A stretch of 51,307 bases of DNA, taken from positions 1-51,307 of the forward strand of contig NZ_JAQWOO010000029.1 in the NCBI RefSeq assembly GCF_029245835.1, written 5' to 3'. The notes beneath the pieces are model-generated. The model had not been told where the DNA came from. It was given only the letters and a program-made list of their open reading frames with translations, and searched no databases. Source of the stretch: Algibacter sp. (GTDB taxonomy: Bacteria > Bacteroidota > Bacteroidia > Flavobacteriales > Flavobacteriaceae). Shown in pieces: positions 21,741 through 24,830 of this stretch (position 1 is its first letter; each line of letters starts with the position of its first letter). The translations under genes and the position numbers were made by a program.

Positions 21741-24613
21741 TAGCCTACAATATTTACAATTTTACCAGGAACAACAATCACTTTTTTAGGCGTTCGTCCT
21801 GCTAACTGTTCTTGTGTTTTTTCATGAGCTAAAACCGCTTTTTCAATATCATCCTTACTCAAATCCAAAGGTAATTCCATAGTAAAACGCATTTTACCAT
21901 TAAACGAAATGGGGTAATTCTTGCTGCTCTCCACTAAATGACTCGCATCAAATTCTGGAAATGGCGCTGTGGAAATAGAACCACTATTTGCTAACTGACT
22001 CCATAACTCCTCAGCAATATGTGGCGCATAAGGGGATATTAAAACCAATAAAGGTTCTAATATTTCTTTTGAAGTACATTTTTGAGCCGTTAATTCATTA
22101 GCAGCAATCATAAACGTTGAAACCGATGTATTAAACGAAAAGTTCTCAATATCTTCCTGTACTTTCTTTATGGTTTTATGAAGCGTTTTTAAAGCCTCCC
22201 CTAACTCTTCCGAAGTTGGGGAACTCGAAACGTAAAAAGTTCCATTTTCTCCTTGATGGTATAGTTTCCATAGTTTTTTAAGGAAGTTATGCACTCCTGT
22301 TATACCGGCCGTATTCCAAGGCTTGTATTGCTCTAATGGGCCTAAAAACATTTCGTAGAGACGCAAACTATCTGCACCGTAATCTAAAACAATATCATCG
22401 GGGTTTACGACATTGAATTTAGATTTGGACATTTTTTCTACATCACGCCCTACTTTATAAACACCATTTTCTAAAATGAATTTTGCATCAGTATAATCCT
22501 CTCCAAATTCTGTATCAGATTTTAATCCTTCAATATCTAATTCATCGGAAGCGTTAACATATTTTACTTTAACATGAATTGGCTGAACTTTTTTACCTTC
22601 AATCAATCCTAAGGACAAATAATTATTTGTGCTTTCTTCTCTATAAACAAAAGCACTAGTCCCCAAAATCATCCCTTGGTTAATCAGTTTTTTAGCAAAC
22701 TCATCATGGTTTACATAGCCTTTATCAAACATGAATTTTTGCCAAAAACGCGAGTATAATAAATGTCCTGTGGCATGCTCTGAACCTCCAATATATAAAT
22801 CGACTTGTTGCCAATAATCAATCGCTTCTTTTGAGAAAATAGCATCGCCATTATTAGGGTCCATGTATCGATTAAAATATTGCGAACTTCCTGCCCACCC
22901 TGGCATGGTATTCAGCTCAAGTGCCCCACCTAGCCTCCCCAAAGGAGAGGAGTTTTCAAACTCATCTTTTGAAACGATTTCAGCTTTATCGCCATACTGC
23001 AACCAATGCCATTTTTTTGCGTTTCCTAGCGGCGGTTCTCCGGTTTCAGTTGGTAAGTATTTGTCAACTTCGGGTAATTCTAACGGTAAAAATTTCTCGT
23101 CTATCATTTGCGGCATTCCATGCGCATCATAATACACCGGAAAAGGCTCACCCCAATAACGTTGACGACTAAACACAGCATCACGTAAACGGTAGTTGGT
23201 TTTACCCTCACCTTGCCCAATCTGCTCCAATTCGTAAATAGCACGTTTGGTCGCTTTTTTATAATTCATCCCGTTCAGGAAATCACTATTTCCAATAACG
23301 GTTTTTTCTTTATCTGAAAACGCTTCTTCTGAAATATCAATCCCATCAAAAATATTAGGAATCGGAATATTAAAATACTTTGCAAAATCATAATCACGCT
23401 GGTCACCACATGGCACAGACATCACTGCTCCTGTTCCGTAACCTGCTAAAACATAATCGCCAATCCAAACAGGAATCGGTTCTTTGGTGAATGGATGTTC
23501 CGCATAAGCGCCTGTAAACACACCTGAAATGGTTTTTACATCTGCCATTCTATCGCGCTCGCTGCGTTTTGAAGATGCTATAATATAGGCTTCAACCTCT
23601 TCTTTTTGTTCTGGAGTTGTTATTTTTGATACTAATTCGTGTTCTGGAGCTAAAGTCATAAATGACACTCCAAAAATGGTGTCGGGTCTTGTTGTGAACA
23701 CGTCAATTTTGTGAGATTGCTTCGTTCCACTCGCAATGACTTTAAAAGAGACCGACGCCCCAACCGATTTTCCAATCCAGTTACGCTGACTTTCTTTTAA
23801 AGAATCTGTCCAATCAATGGTATCTAGTCCTTGAAGTAATCGTTCTGCATAAGCCGAAATACGCATACTCCATTGGGTCATCTTCTTTCTAATTACAGGA
23901 TGTCCGCCACGTTCTGAAACACCATTGACTATTTCATCATTGGCTAAAACCGTTCCTAATGCAGGACACCAGTTTACTTCGGTTTCAGCTAAGTATGTTA
24001 ATCTGTATTGTAATAATATTTCTTGTTGTTTTTTGGAATCAAAAGCATTCCAATCATCAGCAGAAAAAGGTTCAATATTTTCATCACAAACCGCATTAAC
24101 TTTTGCATTTCCTTCCGAAGCAAACACCTTTTCTAATTCTGAAATATCTTCAGCTTTGTCAGTATCAATATTAAACCAAGACTCAAACAACTGAATAAAA
24201 ATCCATTGTGTCCATTTGTAATAACTTGGGTCTGATGTTCTCACTTCACGTGACCAATCAAATGAAAAACCAATTTGATCTAGTTGGCGACGATAGGTTT
24301 TAATGTTTTCGGCAGTAGTAATCGCAGGATGCTGACCTGTTTGAATAGCATACTGTTCCGCAGGTAATCCAAAACTATCATACCCTTGTGGATGCAATAC
24401 ATTAAATCCTTGATGACGCTTATATCGTGCATAAATATCTGACGCTATATAACCCAACGGATGCCCAACGTGCAAACCCGCACCACTTGGGTAAGGAAAC
24501 ATATCCAAAACATAATATTTTGGTTTATCGCTACCATTTATGGCTTTGAAAGTTTGATTATCCGCCCAATATTTTTGCCATTTGGCTTCTATGGCGTTGA
24601 AATTGTATTTCAT
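21740..24613 (-). CDS. leuS: Leucine--tRNA ligase carrying two repeat-derived insertions
   Basis: Charges tRNA-Leu and edits mischarged products. At 957 residues it is long. The HIGH motif reads HVGH at 48-51, the KMSKS motif is in VEKMSKSKFNVV, and the CP1 editing domain follows about residue 290, with TTRPDTIFG at 307-315. Two stretches look foreign: residues 292-301 (VIASGTKQSH) and 554-564 (NSSPLGRLGGA). Their DNA matches dispersed repeats found elsewhere in this window. Both are in frame and lie in loops, one at the start of the editing domain and one before LELNTMPGWAG. Catalytic motifs look intact, so I expect a working enzyme. Confidence 0.96.
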   Translation of the reverse strand: MKYNFNAIEAKWQKYWADNQTFKAINGSDKPKYYVLDMFPYPSGAGLHVGHPLGYIASDIYARYKRHQGFNVLHPQGYDSFGLPAEQYAIQTGQHPAITTAENIKTYRRQLDQIGFSFDWSREVRTSDPSYYKWTQWIFIQLFESWFNIDTDKAEDISELEKVFASEGNAKVNAVCDENIEPFSADDWNAFDSKKQQEILLQYRLTYLAETEVNWCPALGTVLANDEIVNGVSERGGHPVIRKKMTQWSMRISAYAERLLQGLDTIDWTDSLKESQRNWIGKSVGASVSFKVIASGTKQSHKIDVFTTRPDTIFGVSFMTLAPEHELVSKITTPEQKEEVEAYIIASSKRSERDRMADVKTISGVFTGAYAEHPFTKEPIPVWIGDYVLAGYGTGAVMSVPCGDQRDYDFAKYFNIPIPNIFDGIDISEEAFSDKEKTVIGNSDFLNGMNYKKATKRAIYELEQIGQGEGKTNYRLRDAVFSRQRYWGEPFPVYYDAHGMPQMIDEKFLPLELPEVDKYLPTETGEPPLGNAKKWHWLQYGDKAEIVSKDEFENSSPLGRLGGALELNTMPGWAGSSQYFNRYMDPNNGDAIFSKEAIDYWQQVDLYIGGSEHATGHLLYSRFWQKFMFDKGYVNHDEFAKKLINQGMILGTSAFVYREESTNNYLSLGLIEGKKVQPIHVKVKYVNASDELDIEGLKSDTEFGEDYTDAKFILENGVYKVGRDVEKMSKSKFNVVNPDDIVLDYGADSLRLYEMFLGPLEQYKPWNTAGITGVHNFLKKLWKLYHQGENGTFYVSSSPTSEELGEALKTLHKTIKKVQEDIENFSFNTSVSTFMIAANELTAQKCTSKEILEPLLVLISPYAPHIAEELWSQLANSGSISTAPFPEFDASHLVESSKNYPISFNGKMRFTMELPLDLSKDDIEKAVLAHEKTQEQLAGRTPKKVIVVPGKIVNIVG
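22919..22955. repeat. Dispersed repeat family C inside leuS
   Basis: The sense strand of leuS reads CTCTCCTTTGGGGAGG followed by CTAGGTGGGGC, a GC-rich palindrome-containing motif common between flavobacterial genes. It is translated as SSPLGRLGGA. A related copy is at 44826-44852. Confidence 0.7.
23711..23740. repeat. Dispersed repeat family A (half copy) inside leuS
   Basis: On the leuS strand this begins GTCATTGCGAGTGGAACGAA and ends GCAATCTCAC. It matches the left arm of the intergenic repeats at 24633-24717 and 41061-41145. It is read in frame as ten residues, VIASGTKQSH. Confidence 0.85.
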
Positions 24614-24632
24614 CTCTTTCTAATATCTGAAT

Positions 24633-24717
24633 GTCATTGCGAAGGAGGTACGACTGTGGCAATCCTTTTAAACATATTTAAATATTTAACAGATTCCCAC
24701 GCTTCGCTCGGAATGAC
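24633..24717. repeat. Dispersed palindromic repeat family A in the leuS leader
   Basis: An 85-bp element starting GTCATTGCGAAGGAGGTACG and ending in CGCTCGGAATGAC; the outer arms pair (GTCATT/AATGAC), and inner GTGGCAATCC pairs partly with GATTCCCAC. It lies 20 bp upstream of leuS, in its probable leader, between leuS and the divergent ftsX. Confidence 0.8.
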
Positions 24718-24830
24718 GAATTTGAAAGCGCAAATTTAAACTTATTATAACAATGTTGAAAGTTTAAACGTTGTAAAGAACAATCAATTAGAATACTTTA
24801 TTATTTTTACGTCGTTAATCCAATAACTTT

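Follow-up and report, generated by a model that had tools for sequence, protein, structure and literature searches.

An arm of a dispersed palindromic repeat translated within the leucyl-tRNA synthetase gene of Algibacter sp., at a codon where unrelated repeats recur in Flavobacteriaceae

The window analysed here is a stretch of 51,307 nt from Algibacter sp. (contig 35 of a 3.36 Mb genome, G000). It contains leuS, the gene for leucyl-tRNA synthetase (LeuRS), and 30 nt inside this gene (positions 23711–23740, site 1) are one arm, in frame, of a palindromic repeat that is dispersed in the genome. We consider it probable that this arm, which resembles the CGTC class of repetitive extragenic palindromic sequences (REPs), replaced the tip of a hairpin loop on the LeuRS surface in this Algibacter lineage, that repeats have been captured there recurrently, and that the encoded peptide has no function. 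Translated REPs as such were already known; what is new is the place, one leuS codon that collects unrelated repeats across a family. Neither the leuS site nor in-frame cassettes of the domain DUF559, which also occur there, were reported in the titles and abstract beginnings searched, a search that mostly did not cover subscription papers, and leuS may be among the tRNA synthetase genes already published as carrying REPs. A codon of this kind in an essential gene is a natural experiment on where proteins tolerate new sequence, and it shows where selfish DNA can live within an indispensable enzyme.

An earlier note on this DNA had proposed a repeat translated inside leuS, and the reading frame bore this out. 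The gene is an intact frame of 957 aa, in which the coding-strand letters GTCATTGCGAGTGGAACGAAGCAATCTCAC are read as VIASGTKQSH, residues 292–301. The site-1 pattern at up to three mismatches had a single match in the window and none in 100 shuffles. With a 26-nt pattern (the first 26 nt of the arm, two positions left free), five other places in the same genome matched without mismatch, four of them in a single array of contig 27 and the fifth on contig 93; at three mismatches there were three further places, and a reversed control pattern gave none. Two patterns at up to three mismatches found 9 and 13 places in the genome (control, 0), which confirmed a dispersed short palindromic repeat. 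The shuffle and control counts ruled out a chance match of 30 nt. The array on contig 27 is a two-armed palindrome, and inverted (head-to-head) dimers are present both there and in the two-armed element at 24633. These close copies indicate that the present letters of site 1 derive from the repeat. The copies that the earlier note had named as matching, at 24633 and 41061, turned out to be only distant kin: they have GTCATTGCGA / GTCATTACGA and a CAATC-type end in common with the arm and differ in the middle, and the close copies sit elsewhere in the genome. The 20 bp given between the element at 24633 and the start codon of leuS were correct. The family of the site-1 arm (type A below) was not among the 20 largest of the 45 families returned by a window-wide repeat finder.

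Alignment with LeuRS of T. thermophilus (1h3n) placed the segment on a short turn, VEG----KEVR, immediately before TTRPDT, in agreement with its proposed position at the start of the editing domain; the TTRPDT stretch is conserved and has a role in editing. The native loop has 15 aa in most relatives, compared with 19 aa in the window. Among nine other Algibacter genomes, eight had different loop contents and the ninth lacked that part of leuS. Two of the eight carried a 15-residue form (SVTFKVKDSKAVIDV and similar), four had 19-residue loops unrelated in sequence to the arm, one had the heptamer-like LPITNNQQPTT, and one had another repeat, GTCACCCTGAGCGCAGTCGAAGGGTCTC (NVTLSAVEGSH). These other contents within the genus indicate that the arm replaced the loop tip, rather than entering it as a clean insertion. 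Nor is the insertion confined to this genome, as the earlier note had supposed, since A-type arms occupy the same codon in 16 of 278 loops and other repeats do so in many more. The refuting condition named in the earlier note, relatives that share the segment with unrelated codons, applies in part: relatives do carry loops such as KVKDSKAVIDV or even the same-length VVSNEVKEAPEIEV, but the close genomic copies still mark the letters of site 1 as repeat.

The host gene is under purifying selection, judged from its substitutions. Between the leuS genes of the window and of an A. pectinivorans-like genome (G003), nonsynonymous (dN) and synonymous (dS) divergence were 0.092 and 1.376 (dN/dS ~0.07), and the protein scored 910.9 bits against TIGR00396 (cut-off, 548.4). 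The intact frame and the low dN/dS ruled out a pseudogene.

The loop was then read across the family. An 82-residue LeuRS peptide matched 385 of 397 Flavobacteriaceae genomes; loops were sought in 282 genomes (276 from this draw and six extra from the genus) and read in 278, four genomes that yielded no loop being left out (G013, G120, G165, G374). The sample was uneven: of the 385 matching genomes, the 150 listed and the 46 with split hits were all attempted, whereas the 189 less similar ones were represented by 80. Arms were called at a loop score of 13 and tandems at 12, the maxima in 1250 shuffles being 12 and 9. Of the 278 loops, 143 were plain, 51 carried a GTC-type REP arm, 28 a long insert with DUF559, 18 a heptamer tandem, and 38 something else. 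The listed stratum (149 loops) held 82 plain, 36 arm, 21 other and 10 tandem loops; the split-hit stratum (44), 28 long, 11 arm and 5 other; the less similar stratum (79), 59 plain, 10 other, 7 tandem and 3 arm; the extra stratum comprised six. Weighted by stratum, the draw was ~58% plain, ~14% arm, ~13% other, ~7% tandem and ~7% long. The arms fell into subfamilies with differing stems: A (16 rows), C (22), D (6), E (4) and F (3). Type A itself had 361 copies (up to three mismatches) in 104 of the 397 genomes, at least 16 of them at the site-1 codon. Loops built of the 7-bp tandem units GAATTCA or GAGTTCA, read as QNSEFR or QSSEFR, occur in leuS of G201, G047, G170, G118, G096 and G299.

In 35 arms of types A and C, the five stem pairs were kept in 92.6% of cells; the mean was 68% and the maximum 74% when one side was shuffled, and sliding gave at most 49%. 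Three or more pair types occurred at three of the five stem positions. Paired changes have thus preserved the hairpin in the DNA, a pattern that would not result if the arms had arisen purely at the protein level.

On a LeuRS tree (FastTree, 418 columns, loop left out; 30 shuffles for comparison), the single repeat types were distributed nearly at random. Type A required 14 changes for 16 rows (shuffled mean, 15.5), type C 20 for 22 (21.3), the tandems 17 for 18 (17.7), and the DUF559 inserts 23 for 28 (27.0). The loop state overall is partly inherited on this tree, with 106 changes for all states (shuffled mean, 127.9; minimum, 123) and 72 for the plain loop (93.3). Within genera, genomes with closely similar flanks (~178 residues before the loop and 229–240 after it) differed in content. 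The flanks of G326 (A) and G138 (plain) were 97.8 and 95.4% identical, with a DNA identity of 76–97% per 100 nt; those of G315 (A) and G118 (heptamers) were 94.9 and 94.1% identical, those of G208 (other) and G375 (plain) 91.0 and 95.8%, those of G330 (A) and G142 (long, DUF559) 89.3 and 90.0%, those of G328 (A) and G140 (plain) 87.1 and 88.7%, and those of G092 (A) and G298 (plain) 83.1 and 86.9%.

We consider it probable that the site-1 loop was overwritten many times in Flavobacteriaceae, by several REP subfamilies, by 7-bp tandems, or by in-frame DUF559 with hairpin-arm ends. The transfer may have occurred by ectopic copying or REP transposition, and the replacements may have survived because the loop tolerates changes of length and sequence while the rest of LeuRS remains under purifying selection. 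The peptide VIASGTKQSH would then most likely have no function. Several points weigh against repeated capture by a tolerant loop. Tolerance alone fails to explain the convergence of many unrelated repeats on one codon. The loop states taken together are more clustered on the tree than chance allows, so part of them is inherited. A FastTree of 418 columns may inflate the counts of changes, and gains are indistinguishable from losses on it. The carriers G092, G077 and G263 have no second A copy within three mismatches, and a local donor is not demonstrable there. Some arm calls (G212, G146, G373) are borderline, with scores of 13–14.

The closest known class is that of the CGTC REPs (Di Nocera, De Gregorio and Rocco, 2013; PMC3733652). 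According to the accessible part of that paper, the class was reported from five phyla including Bacteroidetes, comprises the Rickettsia palindromic elements (RPEs) RPE-4 and RPE-6, and has no dedicated transposase. The same part describes intragenic copies, among them copies in tRNA synthetase genes of three other bacteria, which mostly lie at differing sites; the one same-site case is recB in two Xanthomonas. The site-1 arm shares with this class, as there described, the A-T first pair, the short hairpin, the inverted dimers and the in-frame intragenic copies, it may share the GTC-type tag, and type A is likewise not regularly flanked by a Y1 transposase or DUF559 gene. An A-T first stem pair was present in 31 of 35 leuS arms. 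In the published class, one end carries an unpaired CGTC, often as TGTC or CCTC. Of the 35 aligned leuS arms, 32 begin with GTC, and the base ahead of this position is T in 19 arms, C in 14 and A in 2; the window copy has A, and the copies seen in the contig 27 array have T or C. The stem given for CGTC REPs in the part consulted is 8–9 bp (PMC3733652), whereas that predicted for the leuS arm is 5 bp plus an inner pair of 2 bp. For this reason we call the arm CGTC-type or REP-like and place it outside the four published families. A further difference from the cases described there is that the leuS arms recur at one codon across many genera.

The earlier note had likened the repeat to a Rickettsia palindromic element in an essential enzyme. 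The likeness holds in that the arm is translated and resembles the RPE-4/RPE-6 class, and in that RPEs, in the accessible text (PMC3733652), are also palindromic repeats translated in housekeeping proteins; it is a likeness of class, no Rickettsia sequence having been compared. As with RPEs, in-frame copies lie inside conserved proteins and are absent from close orthologues. A difference from the RPEs, as far as the sources consulted describe them, is that repeats of unrelated families gather at the one leuS site, together with a nuclease-like domain.

Type A also occurs in other genes. Context was fetched for 29 A copies, one match per genome among the genomes first listed, which is not a random sample. 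Ten of them sit in conserved long frames, all read in the VIA..KQS frame or nearly so, and their hosts were purL (3), an Eco57I/MmeI-like methylase (3), leuS (2) and a methylmalonyl-CoA mutase subunit, mutA (2); Pfam was run on four of the ten. An eleventh copy (L317) was not counted; its long frame precedes a trpB-like start, and the arm is read there in another frame. Within each gene, the arms lie at about the same place across genomes: in purL of L291, L303 and L311, in the Eco57I-like methylase of L299, L300 and L318, and in the mutase of L305 and L314. Two candidate movers were unsupported: the A motif was found near 1 of 17 loci of Y1 (RAYT-like) transposases (one truncated), and the exact A start motif near none of 39 DUF559 loci (two truncated).

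Each of the 28 long inserts in leuS could be aligned with proteins of DUF559 (PF04480). Pfam identified the domain in L231 (E 2.3e-35), the one insert to which it was applied, and others matched in family searches. DUF559 has been tied to Vsr-like endonucleases in the accessible part of one study (PMC12907096). The loops with DUF559 span 142–216 aa, and 23 of the 28 copies retain the E-x-D-G..H motif; it is lost in an open frame in G396 (L414), G011 (L417), G121 (L419), G259 (L423) and G276 (L422, L508). The genome of the window carries an in-frame DUF559 in recG, an 863-aa frame on contig 15 in which PF04480 (1.1e-28) lies between RecG domains. In recG, DUF559 and hairpin arms stand just before PPH(I/V)LVMTATPIPRTL at L258 (G000 contig 15:56156-56455), L255 and L289, from the genomes G000, G003 and G015; G069, G133 and G483 perhaps also have an in-frame DUF559 in recG, to judge by frame length only. 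The other hosts in the family were metH, in frame, and fusions to hisD and hemD. Across the phylum, metH appeared again, together with type ISP, HsdR and HsdM restriction genes and a second site in leuS (L537). The in-frame or fused loci are L274, L279, L526 and L531 (metH), L263 (hisD), and L265, L270 and L271 (hemD); those in restriction genes are L511, L514, L518 and L523, and Pfam was run on part of these loci. Arm peptides like LPLGEDLGEG often lie beside in-frame or fused DUF559 across Bacteroidota.

Pyrimidine-armed hairpins were found within 300 nt of DUF559 loci on both sides in 19 of 37 cases, on one side in 11 and on neither in 7. The same search gave 0 (both sides) and 1 (one side) of 16 Y1 transposase loci, and 0 and 8 of 482 random windows around leuS. 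The 37 loci include in-frame copies, with L273 and L287 left out as too short. The DUF559 alignment excluded L254, L261, L262, L266, L269, L272, L273, L276 and L287 (leuS duplicates, broken or short frames), and the tree also excluded L279, which was too short. On this tree of few columns, DUF559 grouped by host site, with one clade for recG, one for hemD and two groups for leuS (5 changes for six groups; shuffled mean, 24.2). The cassettes thus keep the nuclease motif and group by insertion site, in the manner of homing elements, as far as a tree of few columns can be read.

Homing endonucleases and inteins embed a nuclease gene in an essential gene at a conserved position, form site-specific subfamilies, and keep degenerate copies. 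The DUF559 cassettes resemble them in their conserved essential-gene sites, site-specific groups and degenerate copies. They differ in that the DUF559 loops apparently stay in the protein and are flanked by hairpin arms; 142–216 aa is too short to hold a splicing domain as well. The main alternative to a tolerant capture site, which we regard as possible on this evidence, is a nuclease cut site, with DUF559 acting as a non-splicing homing endonuclease at conserved codons of leuS, recG, metH and other genes. Plausibly, a break would be mended either by copying in the cassette or with ectopic repeats as a patch, which would make the REP arms and heptamers scars of repair. Such a nuclease would account for DUF559 at leuS site 1 (28 of 278 loops) and site 2, where unrelated repeats are found too, for the host-site groups and the kept motif, and for close hosts with different DUF559 types: G211 and G377 are 9% apart in LeuRS and 45% apart in DUF559. 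However, no cleavage activity or target is known for DUF559, and its distances correlate with those of the host LeuRS (Mantel r 0.50, a value not reached in 2000 permutations), which argues for much vertical descent. Four of ten Algibacter genomes have DUF559, yet none of the nine leuS genes readable at the loop has it there. The A start motif was not flagged near any DUF559 locus, and DUF559 was not seen at the A-type purL or mutA sites, though no search was aimed at it there. Tentatively, the Vsr-like DUF559 may form in-frame, non-splicing mobile cassettes with hairpin ends in Bacteroidota that home into conserved codons of essential genes (leuS at two sites, recG, metH) and into restriction genes; the heptamers and the two leuS arms of the window would be repair scars or dead ends of the same cut sites. 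The link between DUF559 and hairpin arms would give at least one repeat class a candidate enzyme, and it points to a role for a domain that is still filed as of unknown function. Known capture sites make the movement of transposase-less REPs directly testable by cut and repair.

Import of an arm-bearing leuS segment from a different genus (that of G183, for example) is unlikely at site 1. G183 is 96% identical over the 82-aa region and has an A-type arm there, and the core of the arm is uninformative on the donor, since GAGTGGAACG and GAGTGAAACG are both present in G000 and G183. At the DNA level, though, the neighbouring 100-nt windows of G000 were 81 and 84% identical to G183 and equally 81 and 84% identical to G003, a comparison in which a very short import would be invisible. 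The site-1 flanks gave no signal of horizontal import, DNA identity to G183 not being raised. A point in favour of import is that at site 2 the arm is linked to an upstream haplotype (WHWLQYGD...FENSSP.GRLGGAL or close) in several genera.

A single ancient insertion in the ancestor of the family, diversified by losses and by gene conversion with genomic repeats, seems more doubtful still. It would fit the same strand and mostly same phase of the arms: of the 42 arms that contain GTCA (51 arms in total), 37 have it in phase 0, and TCTC is in phase 0 in 28 of 28 readable arms. However, T. thermophilus LeuRS has a plain, repeat-free loop of 15 residues, 143 of the 278 loops are likewise plain or nearly so, and contents unrelated in kind and length swap within genera. 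It is very improbable that the arm is retained because it is functional, either in the protein as a loop or in leuS mRNA as a hairpin: the ten A copies in conserved long frames (leuS, purL, DNA methylase, mutA) do share one frame, but close relatives carry loops of unrelated sequence and length, and roughly half of the loops read are plain.

At the second leuS site, the window has a CCTCCCC..GGAGAGG hairpin arm that resembles those at the ends of the recG cassette (Table 1). With one mismatch allowed, its CCTCCCCNAAGGNGAGG had 11 matches in the genome, site 2 included (control, 0). Among 93 LeuRS loci, some from the same genome, this site measured 26 residues in 72 and more than 30 in 20; by eye, these 20 comprise 7 with this hairpin arm, 8 with a GTC-type arm and 5 with other contents. 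A similar upstream stretch accompanied the arm in 7 of 7 loci, which makes inheritance or import likely at site 2.

Table 1. Coordinates of leuS and of the repeat elements in and beside it.
Feature	Position	Strand	Remarks
leuS, leucyl-tRNA synthetase, 957 aa	21740..24613	-	Host gene; open reading frame and TIGR00396 match
Site 1, CGTC-REP-like arm GTCATTGCGAGTGGAACGAAGCAATCTCAC, read VIASGTKQSH (residues 292–301)	23711..23740	-	Hairpin tip before FTTRPDT, editing domain
Site 2, hairpin arm GCCCCACCTAGCCTCCCCAAAGGAGAGGAG (+ strand), translated within ENSSPLGRLGGAL	22923..22952	-	Resembles arms of DUF559 cassettes
Diverged two-armed palindromic element	24633..24718	+	Same general class; unmatched by site-1 pattern at ≤3 mismatches

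A plasmid search gave eight matches, all distant. For the LeuRS of the window, AlphaFold (9 rows) gave an unusable model with a mean predicted local distance difference test (pLDDT) score of 33.4. The model of one DUF559-bearing editing region was weak (49.7 overall; 65–89 in blocks of residues 121–230), and the LeuRS structures among the Foldseek matches listed for it were not used as evidence. An open reading frame on the + strand (24461–24739) ends in CHCEGGTTVAIL...DSHASLGM, which is the translation of the palindromic element upstream of leuS, and is likely spurious. Within LeuRS, the region from SAF (~residue 655) to EKMSKSK (~726) is also variable, with 67–156 residues in the 68 loci read.

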